DNA of 26,020 nt, from positions 1 through 26,020 of the IMG/VR virus record IMGVR_UViG_3300031951_001072; one strand, written 5' to 3'. The position numbers were made by a program, and so were the translations under genes. The stretch is from a virus. The notes below the pieces were generated by a model. That model was not told the origin of the DNA and did not search any database. It saw only the letters and a list, made by a program, of their open reading frames with translations. This document shows, in pieces, positions 4,214 through 21,777 of the stretch; the first letter of the stretch is position 1; each line of letters begins with the position of its first letter.

Positions 4214-4927
4214 TTAATAGTTACCTGCGTAGATGTTAAACCGCTGACGAGTCGCAACCAACGAGTAAGGCATTGACATGATGTCGTCAGGATTGTTGAT
4301 CCGTTTCAGGTTGCGCTTAGACGTCATTGCAATCCGAACAACTTGCGGCGACGGCTCAACGCCAAACTCTGGCGCAAACTCCATAGCCAAGTTGTACACA
4401 AACGCGCGCAGGTAACCCGGCGGGAAATGTAACTGCGTAGCAAGATTAGCCGGTTGGGTCAGCTGCTGCACCGACACAAAGTGCCACTCCAAAACACGCG
4501 TTGGCTTGGGGTAGATCGTCATGGTGATGTCTGGAAACGTGTTGTTCACAAACATAACCTGCGGGTAGGTGCTGGTCACCGTCTTAACCGCAATCCCGTT
4601 GTATTGCTGCTGGTTGATTAGCTTAATGCCGTACGAGACATTTGTCTGCGGGTCACGGAAATACGTTGCGTCGTCAATCAAAACCGGACGATTACCGACG
4701 AAGTCGCCGGTTGGCCCCAACGTGCGTGTGATCTCGTTGGGCGGCCACAAAAACACTTGGTCTTCGGTACAAAACACGGCCAGACGCTCCGTGTTCCATG
4801 AGTCGATCATTTGATTTAAAGCGGTCAAACCATCTTGCATTACCGAAGCTGAAGACGTCTCGCCTTCGGCCAACACACCCAACAACCGCAACGCTCTGTT
4901 GATTTGATCGCCAGCAGTAGTGGCCAT
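4214..4927 (-). CDS. gp4-like head-tail adaptor (head completion) protein
   Basis: A 237-residue protein. The N-terminal segment MATTAGDQINRALRLLGVLA followed by SASVMQDGLTALNQMIDSWN is the helical signature of P22 gp4-type tail accessory factors, which bind under the portal ring and start tail assembly. A beta-rich middle and the helix LRAFVYNLAMEFAPEFGVEP follow. P22 gp4 is about 166 residues; this longer form is common in environmental phages. The ribosome site AAAGGAG sits eight bases before the ATG. Position directly before the gp10-like gene supports the assignment. No catalytic residues for the peptidoglycan activity proposed for P22 gp4 could be confirmed by eye. Confidence 0.78.
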   Translation of the reverse strand: MATTAGDQINRALRLLGVLAEGETSSASVMQDGLTALNQMIDSWNTERLAVFCTEDQVFLWPPNEITRTLGPTGDFVGNRPVLIDDATYFRDPQTNVSYGIKLINQQQYNGIAVKTVTSTYPQVMFVNNTFPDITMTIYPKPTRVLEWHFVSVQQLTQPANLATQLHFPPGYLRAFVYNLAMEFAPEFGVEPSPQVVRIAMTSKRNLKRINNPDDIMSMPYSLVATRQRFNIYAGNY

Positions 4928-6240: not shown

Positions 6241-7443
6241 TTAGCCCCAGATGCGGCAAGCCATTTGCGGACGGATGGTGCTAAAGCCGTACAGAACGTC
6301 AATACGGCAAGGCAGACGGTCGTTGTTGATGTCGTACTGACGAACAATACGCATCGAGATACCGTTGTGGACTTGGCGAGAAGCCATATCCACGCCTTGA
6401 GGCATCAACAGATCGGCGGTAGCAAAAGTGATCGCGTCCTTGTGGTAGACCAAGTTTTGAGCATACTGGCCAGTTGCGTTACCCAGCATGGTGACGGCCG
6501 CACTTGCCGCAGGCAACGAAGTAACGGTTGCCAGTGCTTGGGTTGCTGAGAACAGCGCAGGGCTGATCGACAGGGTTGCTGTGGAGCTACCAGTTGCAGC
6601 GGCAGTTACGGTGAACTGCTGCAGCGAGCCGGTGGACTCACGAGTTTGTGGGTTAACTGCAAACACGCCAGCGATGGTGAACACGTCGCCCACGTTCCAA
6701 GTCTTCGACGAGCCGGTAAAGCTAATCGGCAGAGTCGACTGACCTTCGGTGGTGACAGTCGAGGTCACGGTGATGCCGGTGCCCCAGTCGCCGTTGGTGT
6801 GCTGCTTGATCGACTGCGACATGTTGACTTCGTCGAAGCCCAGCACGCCCATGCCCATCATGCCGTTCTTAAACTGGCGGCTGATGGTGTCGGTCGGGTT
6901 GAACAGACCTTTCATGCCTTCGACCAGACCAGCGTTAGCGGCTGGGTTGACGGTGGCATACCGTGGCGACATCACAGCAGCGTTTTCGTTCAGCTTCTGC
7001 TGAGCTTGCAGCAGAACGAGCGAAGTCGATGGAGTACTGCCTGGGGTGCCAACCGAGTTGAACACGTTTTTGTACGCATTTGCAACGTCAGCGTCAATGG
7101 AAGACGCAAGCTGCGAAATACGAGGCTTTAGAACACGCTCTGCAAAGTCATCCAACTGCATGGTGAGTTCGGCAGAGGTAAAGTTCACGCCGATGTGCTT
7201 CTGCGAAGCAACGGTCAAAGTGGTGAACTGTTCGTTGTCGTCCTGAACTTGCAGGGCGGCACCGTCGGTTACCAACGCGCGATCTGGTAAACGGATACGC
7301 AGGGTGGAACCAATTTTTGCGCCTTCAACGGCGAAAGAATCGTCGTATTGACGATTGACGTTACGAGTGATCACCAGGTTGTTCTCGAGGATCTCGAGCG
7401 CTTTGCGGGTGATCATGTCGATAGTAAGAATCGAGTTTGCCAT
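6241..7443 (-). CDS. Major capsid (coat) protein, P22 coat family
   Basis: A 400-residue protein. It begins MANSILTIDMITRKALEILE, followed by RNVNRQYDDSFA and GAKIGSTLRIRLPDR, then HIGVNFTSAELTMQLDDFAE, the N-arm and spine helix pattern of the P22 gp5 coat family with its HK97-type fold. Residues about 225-320 form a Thr/Ser/Val-rich inserted beta domain (SFTGSSKTWNVGDVFTIAGV) at the place where P22 coat carries its I-domain. The end returns to the core fold (ISMRIVRQYDINNDRLPCRI). Length is near P22 coat (430). It lies 17 bases after the scaffold gene with ribosome site AAGGAC, the expected scaffold-coat order. Confidence 0.88.
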   Translation of the reverse strand: MANSILTIDMITRKALEILENNLVITRNVNRQYDDSFAVEGAKIGSTLRIRLPDRALVTDGAALQVQDDNEQFTTLTVASQKHIGVNFTSAELTMQLDDFAERVLKPRISQLASSIDADVANAYKNVFNSVGTPGSTPSTSLVLLQAQQKLNENAAVMSPRYATVNPAANAGLVEGMKGLFNPTDTISRQFKNGMMGMGVLGFDEVNMSQSIKQHTNGDWGTGITVTSTVTTEGQSTLPISFTGSSKTWNVGDVFTIAGVFAVNPQTRESTGSLQQFTVTAAATGSSTATLSISPALFSATQALATVTSLPAASAAVTMLGNATGQYAQNLVYHKDAITFATADLLMPQGVDMASRQVHNGISMRIVRQYDINNDRLPCRIDVLYGFSTIRPQMACRIWG

Positions 7444-11936: not shown

Positions 11937-14254
11937 TACGCCGCCTGATAAGTAATTGTCAAATACAGTGAGGTATTGTTGTTAACTTGTCCAGCATCTA
12001 TTTGAGACAATGCAACGTTATCTCCAGATTCCCAAATAAATATGTCCAAATCATTAGTCTGCATATAACAATGTGTTTGTGTATATCCAGCATCAAAATT
12101 CAAACTGCCAGACATACATAGGCCAACTGCGGTGTAACTTGTTAAAGTTACTGGAGTTAAAACGGATGGAACCCCGGTAATTCGCAAATTACCTGCGGCA
12201 GTACCGTCTTTAGCAGAAAGCACAATTGTGGCAAACAATGTAACCATATTGCCAACACGAAGATATCGGCCAACTTGAGTTGTGTAAGTTTGCGTACCAG
12301 GGGTTGTGGTAAATGAAACCACTGGAGTCCAAGACCCCATTTCGGTAAAACCACGGCCTACGTTAGCGGCAAGTGGGCCAAAAAAATCAGTCCCTGTAAT
12401 AGACGCATGGTTTACTGAATTGCCTGTATTTTCTACGCTTGCACCTGAATCAGCAGCAGAATAGATGTACAAACCAAAAGTTTGAGTTGGAACAGTTTGA
12501 TCGTCATAACATTGGTTTTCAGCTAGCCTGTTTTGCGTTGCATAAGCGTACAGAGCAATGCCGCCGCGAGTAGCAAGTGTGATACCGGCCTGATTATTAT
12601 TACGCGCAATGTTACCTACGATTGAACTGTTTTTAGTCTGTTGGAATTGAAAGCCAACCAAATCGCAGGTTTCAGCAATGTTTCCTTGGACAATCAAACC
12701 GTCGCACATTGCGGGATATGGCGCGCTCGCATTATCAATACGAAAACCATACCCACAACTTCTAGCAGTGTTTCCGATAAATTGTGTGCGGCTTTGCGGG
12801 ACATGAATGCGAAACCCCATGTTTCCGCAGTCTATAGCTATGTTGTTTGATATGCAGCTGCGCTCGTTATACGCGACCGCAAATCCAGAACCGAAATTGT
12901 TTCCATACGCTAAACAATTTGTGACCCGCAAATCATTACCGAGAACGTAAAACCCATCGTCAATAAACCAGTCATATGCGCGGCATGAATCCATAACTGC
13001 ACCGCTGGCATCACCAAAATAAAATCCAGTTGCACTGTTGATACTTTCGCAATTGAAAACTAAGCCACCAGATAGAAACAAGATGCCTCTTGGACGACCA
13101 GGATTACCAGTTTGTGACCATGCTTGCGCCCGTAAAATTTTACAGTTTTTAACGGAGTTATTGGCTTTGTATAAAGATACGCCAGTTGGTGATTGAGTAA
13201 CAACAATGCCACTCCAAGTATCTTGAGTAGATATATTATCTAAGATGCAATTTGCAATATAGCCAAGATATACACCACCAACACCCTTGTTTGCAGATGT
13301 AATTACAGTTGCATCGGATTGCTGAACGGTATTAATACCAACAATTGAAATATTGTCAATTTTGATTCCGGTATTGCCCGTAACAGAATTCCAATTTTCA
13401 TTGTAAATAGCTGCTACACCGTAGGCGGAATTAGCCCCAGTCAAAGTAAGCGTGGCGTTGGCAAACCAAGTATTTGTTCTGGCTACCAATGACGCAGCAA
13501 TAGCGTAGTTATCGCCGCCGCCGTCAAGCCAAACCCCGGGGGAAGCATCAATAGCAGCTTGAATTGCAGCCGTATCATCGGTCACCCCATCACCCACAGC
13601 GCCAAAGTCTTTGACGCTGACCGTTTGTGCCAATTTATCTTCAACATTTGTAGGCACCGAACCAACAAACGGTGGGTCATAAGACACTTGTGCAGCATCT
13701 ACCGCGCCGCTGCTGTTTAGCTGTGAAGTGGTAAATTTAACGGACGCGCCAACGTGCAAACCAGACACAAAAGTTACCGTGTCGCTGTCAGTCTCCACAT
13801 ACGCATACAGGGCGCCTGGGCCGTACTGATTTACGCCATCCACAAACACCGACAGGCTGTTAGTGCCTGGCTGGTACTGCATGGTGGTTAGATTGAAAAC
13901 CGTTTGTCCAGCAGTAGCAGTTTGAATCTCTTGTTCGTTGGTGAAATTAACGAAATTAGAGTTGATGCCGATGATGTTGTCGTAGGTGCCAATCAACACA
14001 TCGTTGCTGTCGGTAATGACAAACTTGTATGCCAGCCCGTCAGTCAACCAGATTTCACCGCTTGGCACGCGGCCAGCAGAGTCAAGAATAATCGGGTTGG
14101 CGTGCGCAGTGCCACCAGATGCGCTGGTGTAAGTGGGTTGATTGGTGGTTGTACCGGCAGAATAGGTAAAAATCTTGCCGCCCGACAGGGGGTTGCCGTT
14201 GTTGTCGAAAAACTGACCGGCGACGCCGCCGACCGGGGAAAGATTGACGGCCAT
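11936..14254 (-). CDS. Main tailspike with head-binding domain and beta helix
   Basis: A 772-residue protein. Residues 1-100 (MAVNLSPVGGVAGQFFDNNG, NPLSGGKIFTYSAGTTTNQP, GEIWLTDGLAYKFVITDSND) form a tailspike head-binding domain of the P22 type. About 105-200 is a linker domain (TAGQTVFNLTTMQYQPGTNS). VKDFGAVGDGVTDDTAAIQA near residue 215 opens the pectate-lyase-3 beta helix that runs to about 640. The C-terminal domain (MGSWTPVVSFTTTPGTQTYT onward) is the beta-sandwich often found at the end of phage spikes. It is the likely receptor-binding enzyme. A GGAG site spans the stop of the preceding 54-residue gene. Confidence 0.85.
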   Translation of the reverse strand: MAVNLSPVGGVAGQFFDNNGNPLSGGKIFTYSAGTTTNQPTYTSASGGTAHANPIILDSAGRVPSGEIWLTDGLAYKFVITDSNDVLIGTYDNIIGINSNFVNFTNEQEIQTATAGQTVFNLTTMQYQPGTNSLSVFVDGVNQYGPGALYAYVETDSDTVTFVSGLHVGASVKFTTSQLNSSGAVDAAQVSYDPPFVGSVPTNVEDKLAQTVSVKDFGAVGDGVTDDTAAIQAAIDASPGVWLDGGGDNYAIAASLVARTNTWFANATLTLTGANSAYGVAAIYNENWNSVTGNTGIKIDNISIVGINTVQQSDATVITSANKGVGGVYLGYIANCILDNISTQDTWSGIVVTQSPTGVSLYKANNSVKNCKILRAQAWSQTGNPGRPRGILFLSGGLVFNCESINSATGFYFGDASGAVMDSCRAYDWFIDDGFYVLGNDLRVTNCLAYGNNFGSGFAVAYNERSCISNNIAIDCGNMGFRIHVPQSRTQFIGNTARSCGYGFRIDNASAPYPAMCDGLIVQGNIAETCDLVGFQFQQTKNSSIVGNIARNNNQAGITLATRGGIALYAYATQNRLAENQCYDDQTVPTQTFGLYIYSAADSGASVENTGNSVNHASITGTDFFGPLAANVGRGFTEMGSWTPVVSFTTTPGTQTYTTQVGRYLRVGNMVTLFATIVLSAKDGTAAGNLRITGVPSVLTPVTLTSYTAVGLCMSGSLNFDAGYTQTHCYMQTNDLDIFIWESGDNVALSQIDAGQVNNNTSLYLTITYQAA

Positions 14255-20008: not shown

Positions 20009-20094
20009 GTTAGTGAGCACTTACTTCACGCAGCCAGGTTAGTGAGCACTAACTTACAGTTGTCAGCCTGACAAGTTAGTGAGTACTTACTAAC
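20009..20094. promoter_or_regulatory. Three 20-bp near-palindromic operator-like repeats
   Basis: Direct repeats start at 20009, 20038 and 20075. Each begins GTTAGTGAG and reads as an imperfect palindrome; the third, GTTAGTGAGTACTTACTAAC, has arms that match except at one position. Between copies two and three lies a perfect 15-bp palindrome, TTGTCAGCCTGACAA (20060-20074). On the minus strand TTGTCA there could serve as a -35, but no good -10 follows, so the late promoter may need an activator. The sites sit between the divergent late and early units. Confidence 0.7.
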
Positions 20095-20137
20095 ATCTGT
20101 GGGCGGTTTAGGCTGCCAACGCTAGGTGCGCAGATAC

Positions 20138-20167
20138 TTGTAGCGTTATTATTTCTAACGTTATAAA
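20138..20167 (+). promoter_or_regulatory. Early promoter for the 85-residue gene
   Basis: TTGTAG (20138-20143) and TATAAA (20162-20167) are separated by 18 bp, a reasonable sigma70 promoter. Two operator-like 17-bp units (20144-20160 and 20159-20175) fill the spacer and cover the -10, so a protein bound there would block RNA polymerase. Confidence 0.55.
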
Positions 20168-20175
20168 ATGTAACG
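20144..20175. repeat. Two overlapping CGTTA-N7-TAACG operator units
   Basis: CGTTATTATTTCTAACG (20144-20160) and CGTTATAAAATGTAACG (20159-20175) share two bases and repeat with a 15-bp period. Each is a 5-7-5 inverted repeat. They overlie the early promoter. Close copies in inverted orientation lie at 20515-20563. Confidence 0.75.
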
Positions 20176-20200
20176 CCTACTAACTTTGAAAGGAAACATT

Positions 20201-20458
20201 ATGGCAACCAAGCAAACCATTCTAGAGGGCCGGTATCAGCACAAGGTAGACCTAGTGGATGACGTTAACGCGCTTGATTCGTTGACCGGTTCGCAGGTCT
20301 ATTCAATCCTGCTTTGCGTAACCGATCTGTTACCTGCGCAAATCAAATTGGAGCAACGCAGTCCGAAGGGGCCGATAGACCTATCTGTGGATAACTTTCG
20401 CTTTAAGATCAATCAGCGGGCAAAAGTTAGCCAACGATATGAAATACGCCCGATTTGA
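20201..20458 (+). CDS. Unrecognised 85-residue early protein, candidate autoregulator
   Basis: The chosen start is ATG 20201, five bases after the strong site GAAAGGAAA; an in-frame TTG at 20186 lies upstream of that site and is rejected. The protein begins MATKQTILEGRYQHKVDLVD and contains LTGSQVYSILLCVTDLLPAQ (a helix that could pack a dimer) and SVDNFRFKINQRAKVSQRYE (basic beta-like end). I do not recognise the family. The basic C-terminal end and the four CGTTA-N7-TAACG units flanking the gene make a DNA-binding autoregulator plausible. This is inference; no classic helix-turn-helix or ribbon-helix-helix motif is obvious. Confidence 0.75.
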   Translation: MATKQTILEGRYQHKVDLVDDVNALDSLTGSQVYSILLCVTDLLPAQIKLEQRSPKGPIDLSVDNFRFKINQRAKVSQRYEIRPI

Positions 20459-20514
20459 TTTGTAGGCAATGTTGGCGCTTTTTTTGCCAACTCAAGTTAG
20501 CCGACCCCTACAAA

Positions 20515-20563
20515 CGCTACATTTTCTAACGCGGCTATTGTAGGGGCGTTACAAATAATAACG
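20515..20563. repeat. Two CGTTA-N7-TAACG type units, inverted relative to the first pair
   Basis: Units lie at 20515-20531 (CGCTACATTTTCTAACG) and 20547-20563 (CGTTACAAATAATAACG). Read on the minus strand, the second matches the 20144-20160 unit at 16 of 17 positions, and the first matches the 20159-20175 unit at 15 of 17. The arms of an 8-bp inverted repeat separate and flank them. Confidence 0.75.
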
Positions 20564-20713
20564 TTTTACCGATAATTTAACTTCTAACAGTCTAATAACA
20601 ACATAGCCAACAAAAAGCCAAAAGCCTGACCCAGCCTCGCATCCCACGTTGGCAAACCACGCGCCCACAATAGCCAACAATCCGCCCAAACCGCCCACAA
20701 AACCGCAACGCAA
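20549..20713 (-). CDS. Doubtful small membrane protein (54 codons, TTG start)
   Basis: An open minus-strand frame from a TTG at 20713 (or farther upstream) encodes two hydrophobic stretches, GFVGGLGGLLAIVGAWFANV and SGFWLFVGYVVIRLLEVKLS. It would fit a two-span peptide and its stop codon lies in an operator unit. However, the strand is very G/T-rich, which produces Gly/Val/Leu/Trp by chance; the start is poor, and the frame farther upstream runs across an opposing promoter. Listed only as a candidate. Confidence 0.2.
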   Translation of the reverse strand: MRCGFVGGLGGLLAIVGAWFANVGCEAGSGFWLFVGYVVIRLLEVKLSVKRYYL

Positions 20714-20731: not shown

Positions 20732-20760
20732 TTTACACTTTTTATTTTTTCGCGTATAAA
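20732..20760 (+). promoter_or_regulatory. Strong sigma70-like promoter of the early operon
   Basis: TTTACA (20732-20737) and TATAAA (20755-20760) are separated by the ideal 17 bp in an A/T-rich setting. Each hexamer is close to consensus. The first gene of the early operon begins about 60 bases downstream. No CGTTA-N7-TAACG unit overlaps it, so it may be unregulated by that system. Confidence 0.72.
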
Positions 20761-20821: not shown

Positions 20822-21025
20822 ATGATTACTTTCGCTGAATATATGGCCTTCTTTGATCGTTGGATCAACTATCAATTCTCACGTGCCGAAGATGCGGCGC
20901 ACGTCAACGAAATTCTGCAGGCAGTGGGCCGGATTGTTTCCGATCCTGATGAGTTAGCGTATTGGGCCGAGCGCGACAATTGGTCTATGTATCACTGCGC
21001 AAAAGAGGTTAGCCATGTTCAATAA
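20822..21025 (+). CDS. Unrecognised early protein (67 aa)
   Basis: A 67-residue protein with a strong site (AGGGAG) before the ATG. It begins MITFAEYMAFFDRWINYQFS, then AEDAAHVNEILQAVGRIVSD, DPDELAYWAERDNWSMYHCA and ends KEVSHVQ. It is aromatic-rich, acidic and helical, without a familiar motif. First gene behind the strong early promoter, where phages often place small host-takeover or anti-defence proteins; that role is inferred from position only. The next gene's ATG lies inside its 3' end. Confidence 0.7.
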   Translation: MITFAEYMAFFDRWINYQFSRAEDAAHVNEILQAVGRIVSDPDELAYWAERDNWSMYHCAKEVSHVQ

Positions 21026-21378: not shown

Positions 21379-21777
21379 ATGAAAACTACACACACTATCG
21401 ACAATACCGAAGACCTCATTGATAGCCGCGACGTCATCGCGCGCATTGAAGAATTGCTTGACGAGATGCCGGATGATGACGCAGACGCGCGGCGGTGGGA
21501 TGGGTGGGCGGAACTGCAGACGTTAGAAAAACTCGCCAAAGAGGCCGAATGCGCGCCTGACTGGTCTTATGGCGAGACGCTGATTCGCCGCTCTTACTTT
21601 GTCGACTATACCGAGCAATTGATCAATGACTGCTATGAACTACCTAAAGAAATGAACTCGGGCCAATGGCCCTACCGGCACATGACCATCGACTATGAAG
21701 CCGCCGCGCGTGAGTTAGAACATGACTACACGTCCGTCGATTTCGATGGTGTTGAATACTTGATCCGTTACGTCTAA
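21379..21777 (+). CDS. Acidic early protein (132 aa), conserved phage type
   Basis: A 132-residue, strongly acidic protein. Residues 1-33 (NTEDLIDSRDVIARIEELLD) are helical, DDDADARRWDGWAELQTLEK follows, then DWSYGETLIRRSYFVDYTEQ and LINDCYELPKEMNSGQWPYR. It ends with TIDYEAAARELEHDYTSVDF and DGVEYLIRYV. The YGETLI-YF-YTEQL-D and IDYEAAARELEHDY-VDFDG motifs are conserved in many small phage and plasmid proteins I remember near early or anti-restriction loci, but no proven function is known to me. Its charge might mimic DNA. The ribosome site is GGGAG. Confidence 0.75.
   Translation: MKTTHTIDNTEDLIDSRDVIARIEELLDEMPDDDADARRWDGWAELQTLEKLAKEAECAPDWSYGETLIRRSYFVDYTEQLINDCYELPKEMNSGQWPYRHMTIDYEAAARELEHDYTSVDFDGVEYLIRYV

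Follow-up and report, generated by a model that had tools for sequence, protein, structure and literature searches.

The early gap between the two divergent gene blocks of a 26,020-bp virus record (hereafter the window, meaning this whole stretch of DNA) holds four 17-bp palindromic units that flank a gene for an 85-residue protein. This arrangement raises two questions, namely whether the units form an operator system serving the enclosed gene, and which protein would read them. The window is probably a fragment of a viral genome, and its phage is a P22/epsilon15-like podovirus of freshwater. Terminase identity is 72% with phage DSL-LC05 and 67% with MW202483, two podoviruses whose genomes were assembled from the water of lakes and springs (PMC10611076). 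Terminase and structural genes run leftward from 19.9 kb and small early genes run rightward from 20.2 kb, followed on the minus strand by a primase-like gene and a family A DNA polymerase gene. One of the early proteins, of 132 residues (21379-21777), gives a weak match to the antirestriction protein ArdA, below the curated cut-off, and falls in a PHROG of unknown function. The units and the gene that they enclose are arranged as follows.

20138-20167, plus strand: putative promoter of the 85-residue gene, TTGTAG-N18-TATAAA, proposed from its conservation in the relative L005; overlaps units 1 and 2
20144-20160, no strand: unit 1, CGTTATTATTTCTAACG, exact CGTTA-N7-TAACG, between the -35 and -10 of this promoter
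20159-20175, no strand: unit 2, CGTTATAAAATGTAACG, exact CGTTA-N7-TAACG, spanning the -10 and having 2 bases in common with unit 1
20190-20196, plus strand: Shine-Dalgarno-like AAGGAAA, recognised by sequence and preceded by a short leader
20201-20458, plus strand: 85-residue gene, ATG at 20201; orphan family, apparently under purifying selection
20515-20531, no strand: unit 3, CGCTACATTTTCTAACG, one arm mismatch (CGCTA)
20547-20563, no strand: unit 4, CGTTACAAATAATAACG, exact CGTTA-N7-TAACG

The sequence bears out the four positions given in the first-pass annotation, with three exact units and one single-mismatch unit. In a scan of the full 26,020 bp, exact CGTTA-N7-TAACG occurs at units 1, 2 and 4 only, and one further copy within one mismatch lies outside the set, at 13936. 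Arms as short as 5 bp could suggest that AT-rich palindromes have merely clustered by chance, but 200 dinucleotide shuffles give an expectation of 0.055 exact units per window, against three observed. Three identical-arm palindromes within 450 bp, present in the real sequence, arose in none of 60 whole-window and 600 1-kb-region shuffles, in which any 5+5 palindrome sequence with a gap of 0-12 was accepted. The shuffles and the layout kept in L005, described below, already refute chance clustering, to which we give practically no credence. The inverted-orientation matches reported earlier were likewise reproduced, units 1 and 4 being identical at 16/17 positions (94%) and units 2 and 3 at 15/17 (88%). 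Because the same spacer-level pairing is weaker in L005, whose units were read directly (15/17 and ~12/17), the pairing of 1 with 4 and of 2 with 3 probably reflects AT-rich spacers (47 of 56 spacer bases) rather than a designed symmetry.

A terminase search recovered 80 related loci, and the early region adjoining the small terminase gene could be examined in 59 of them; these regions are not all independent (44 are distinct among closer relatives), and L091 is the L005 locus reversed. Three of the 59 regions encode the 85-residue protein, belonging to the window, to L004, which is nearly identical to it, and to the diverged L005. Exact units occur in the same three regions, and gene and units are both absent from the other 56. 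The first-pass annotation had named many unlinked copies as a possible refutation; neither the rest of the window nor 864,308 bp of sequence from gene-less relatives contains an exact unit, which leaves the operator reading unrefuted. In L005, units 1 and 2 keep the same 15-bp register over an equivalent promoter (TTGTGG-N18-TATAAA, in the same register to both units), the two downstream units begin 53 bp beyond the stop codon, against 57 bp in the window, and unit 3 again carries one arm mismatch. Between the two phages, the arms are identical at 38 of 40 bases and the spacers at 19 of 28 (Fisher p = 0.005), the promoter block is identical at 42 of 50 bases, and synonymous sites at ~32%. Since the backbones of the window and L005 differ (terminase dS 0.63, dN 0.04; different repeated words), the sites track the gene and not the backbone. 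Because this diverged relative keeps the layout, the sites almost certainly regulate the gene, with which they form a selected cis-regulatory module. The proposal that the palindromes serve the enclosed gene thus finds support in gene-site co-occurrence in 3 of 59 regions and in the 2+2 layout and promoter kept in L005.

The cassette is more diverged than the terminase, and the close relatives of each cassette carrier are devoid of it, which suggests repeated gain or loss, or else fast evolution of the cassette. This patchy presence, together with the inverted arrangement of the two pairs, might be taken as the mark of a mobile cassette whose palindromes are terminal inverted repeats. We consider this very improbable: compared with the gene-less L025, the segment has been replaced, with no clean insertion or target duplication; the DnaA-box element described below continues inside the gene; the spacer-level pairing weakens in L005; and both cassettes, in which no recombinase gene is found, occupy the same relative place. 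Wider scans for the promoter-plus-unit pattern returned 77 stretches, with no cluster of at least three units among the new ones, and then 5 stretches, of which the three new ones had neither the gene nor clustered units in the part inspected. In species genomes, the tandem-unit pattern occurs at 39 loci from diverse taxa, many of them Actinobacteria and Paracoccus. Three tandem-pattern matches, L006, L007 and L008, were rejected as relatives, being unrelated and having other spacers; no homologue of the gene is found among the listed ORFs of L007 and L008, and L006 resembles L007.

The ORF enclosed by the units behaves as a real protein gene under purifying selection, as indicated by a dN/dS of ~0.17 and by codon-position differences of 28/14/44 between the window and L005. 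The two proteins are 56% identical, and their genes differ at 68% of the synonymous (dS 1.8) and 25% of the non-synonymous sites, which places the former near saturation. Comparison with Pfam, PHROGs, NCBIfam, PADLOC and PDB sequences gave no match for the protein, and its L005 homologue likewise has no Pfam, NCBIfam or PADLOC match. Searches with either protein or an alignment of the two, covering viral contigs, species genomes, and phage and plasmid records, returned only the window, L004 and L005, so that the family counts two independent members, a small sample. The fold was modelled, as the first-pass annotation had advocated. AlphaFold, run twice on an alignment of two sequences, gave a strand-helix-helix-three strands topology both times, at low overall confidence, as only one of five models per run reaches a moderate score (pLDDT 79.5 and 71.3). 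Foldseek searches with these low-confidence models gave no hit under E 0.2 and no fold recognisable as DNA-binding. The predicted structure neither supports nor excludes DNA binding by the protein.

The surroundings of the gene include a second promoter-like sequence and two hairpins.

20471-20491, plus strand: stem-loop GTTGGC...GCCAAC, directly after the stop codon
20505-20546, no strand: inverted repeat CCCCTACAA / TTGTAGGGG, whose loop encloses unit 3
20732-20760, plus strand: main early promoter-like sequence, TTTACA-N17-TATAAA, recognised by sequence; no CGTTA unit

The first pair of units had been described as sitting on the early promoter, with the -10 inside unit 2. A putative promoter does lie there with its -10 in unit 2, but it is the gene's own promoter (which a strict consensus promoter scan does not list) and not the main early one, found ~570 bp beyond it. 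The TGYAAA-N7-TTTRCA dyad of the main early promoter is also present in several gene-less relatives that have no CGTTA units. In L005, a hairpin of other sequence stands at the equivalent of 20471-20491, and unit 3 is also flanked by an inverted repeat, CGCTACTG / CAGTAGCG (4565-4605, minus strand). RNA-folding z-scores for the hairpins at both places are -2.2 and -6.5. Although the stem sequences differ, both phages thus have unit 3 within an inverted-repeat loop. In four gene-less relatives (L025, L017, L012 and L023), a terminator-like hairpin, GGGCC-GAG-GGCCC-TTTTT, is located near the equivalent of the cassette promoter, with no gene before it.

The best explanation, to which we assign a probability of roughly 55%, is an autoregulated cassette in which the 85-residue product binds its own flanking operators. 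Such a cassette would be self-contained, comprising a promoter, one gene and units 1-4. A dimer of the protein would bind each 17-bp site, whose CGTTA half-sites lie about one helical turn apart on either side of an AT-rich spacer. On units 1 and 2, which overlap, two dimers would sit ~1.5 turns apart on roughly opposite faces of the DNA, and would block the -35 and -10 of the promoter that drives the gene. The downstream units 3 and 4 would add affinity or repression, and could pair with units 1 and 2 through a DNA loop of ~360-400 bp. We infer that the units are operators, that binding represses, that the pairs cooperate, and that the gene product is the binder. The operator role rests on the fact that promoter dyads with half-sites about one turn apart are the classic form of operators, and the identity of the binder on the sites accompanying the gene in different phage backbones and being missing wherever the gene is missing. 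However, gene and sites would also travel together with another protein as the binder. DNA looping between the pairs is possible. The spacing of units 2 and 3 is 356 and 358 bp in the two phages, near-integral at 10.5 bp per turn (33.9 and 34.1 turns; 36.95 and 36.1 for units 2 and 4) and non-integral at 10.4 or 10.6. As this phasing depends on the helical repeat that is assumed, it is not used as evidence for looping.

Autoregulatory operators of phages are exemplified by OR and OL of lambda, bound by CI and Cro. As in OR/OL, several near-identical 17-bp dyads are found here, with a close-packed group over a promoter, and copies on both sides of the gene could permit looping over it. Unlike CI and Cro, the enclosed protein has no recognised HTH or other known DNA-binding domain, the operators are arranged 2+2 around a single 85-residue gene, and no copy is present at the main early promoter. 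Among the proteins scanned, no lysogeny genes were recognised. Auxiliary operators are also known at a distance, such as the flanking sites FL and FR of phage 186 CI, or those inside or behind the gene start in gal and lac. The downstream pair resembles these in lying a few hundred bp away, compatible with looping; here, however, the protein is a different one, the auxiliary pair stands directly behind the regulated gene, and looping is only possible.

A third comparison concerns the graTA operator of Pseudomonas putida, where two dimers of the HigA-type GraA antitoxin on opposite DNA faces read a TAACGTTA core (PMC6393540). The junction of units 1 and 2 (20156-20163), read from the sequence, is this same 8-bp TAACGTTA, and the upstream pair combines it with distal half-sites in a manner compatible with two dimers on opposite faces. 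In contrast to graTA, the distal half-sites here consist of specific CGTTA/TAACG arms, and further dyads, each standing alone, follow the gene. The resemblance is one of operator layout, not of protein: neither the 85-residue protein nor its L005 homologue has a Pfam, NCBIfam or PADLOC match to a HigA/XRE-type antitoxin, and there is no sign of a toxin partner, the gene standing alone before the hairpins and the next gene (20822-21025) having no toxin match.

The GraA core nonetheless lends some weight to a tentative alternative, namely that the units are true operators for another binder, such as a host regulator (e.g., a HigA/GraA-type repressor) or a protein from the missing part of the genome, with the gene as a regulated, moron-like accessory. 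The protein falls into no assignable DNA-binding family or fold, and the window is a fragment where related phages reach ~37 kb, both of which are consistent with a binder encoded elsewhere. Yet a host or common phage protein predicts copies in gene-less relatives, where none is exact in 864 kb; two of the units stand behind the gene, where promoter-like matches are weak only; and the 39 cellular tandem loci have no visible link to the phage group. We therefore regard this alternative as possible but doubtful, and retain the autoregulated cassette as the preferred reading.

The region around the cassette also has the appearance of a replication origin, with a DnaA box and further repeats.

20386-20394, minus strand: DnaA box TTATCCACA, perfect, inside the 85-residue gene; the window has no other match within one mismatch
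20009-20024, 20038-20053 and 20075-20090, plus strand: three GTTAGTGAGYACTNACT palindromic repeats, a separate repeat system

The DnaA box is also found in the L005 gene and, in relatives, at the corresponding non-coding position. Relatives such as L017 have the surrounding ATCTGTGGATAACTTT there as well, and 35 of the 59 regions contain TGTGGATAA. This suggests that the coding gene has incorporated an origin-like element, the cassette having become part of an origin-like region. The palindromes could in that case be iteron-like initiator sites, with the gene embedded among them as the lambda O gene is embedded in ori-lambda. The position of the sole DnaA box inside the gene, its conservation at the nucleotide level, the frequency of TGTGGATAA, and the hairpins and other repeat families that crowd the region would all fit. 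But the other 56 regions have neither units nor gene, and since many of them show the same origin-like features, the units are not needed for an origin; units 1 and 2, moreover, coincide with a promoter, a typical operator position. A role as initiator sites is thus unlikely. GC skew has no clear turning point and says nothing either way about replication starting here. A composite idea, in which the protein founds a new DNA-binding family and bridges the two pairs into a loop around the DnaA box, throttling both its own promoter and the phage origin, is a long shot.

Other repeats of this region vary among relatives. Most relatives, whether or not they encode the 85-residue protein, have 1-5 copies of the GTTAGTGAGYACTNACT palindromes adjoining their small terminase gene. 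Between its terminase and early genes, each phage has a 9-bp word in up to about 8 copies, which run in both orientations (20098-20700 in the window, and the L012-L066 equivalents). The words differ between phages (GTTAGTCAT, GTGGGTCAT, GTGGACAAT, GTTGGCTAT, GTAGGCAAT, GCACGTCAT), at times even between those with almost identical terminases, and several are similar to the DnaA box TGTGGATAA. They look like a diversifying binding-site or origin-specificity system. A search for a protein co-varying with the word gave no convincing candidate, the top families being apparently antisense or alternative frames. Next to the primase of MW202483 lies a gene (7083-7379) for a small DnaA-like HTH protein, and the equivalent intergenic region of this phage has many TTTACATAAAC repeats; the HTH gene has no BLAST match in close relatives.

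Judged by its conservation, the locus is a genuine regulatory module of a familiar kind built around an orphan gene. Sequence conservation alone defines here a compact gene-plus-operator cassette, composed of an orphan protein and a clear 17-bp target, within the origin-like region of a phage group common in freshwater. Should the protein bind these units, it would represent a new small DNA-binding family and provide a ready-made repressor/operator pair. The patchy distribution of the cassette suggests that such regulatory cassettes are gained or lost between otherwise near-identical phages.
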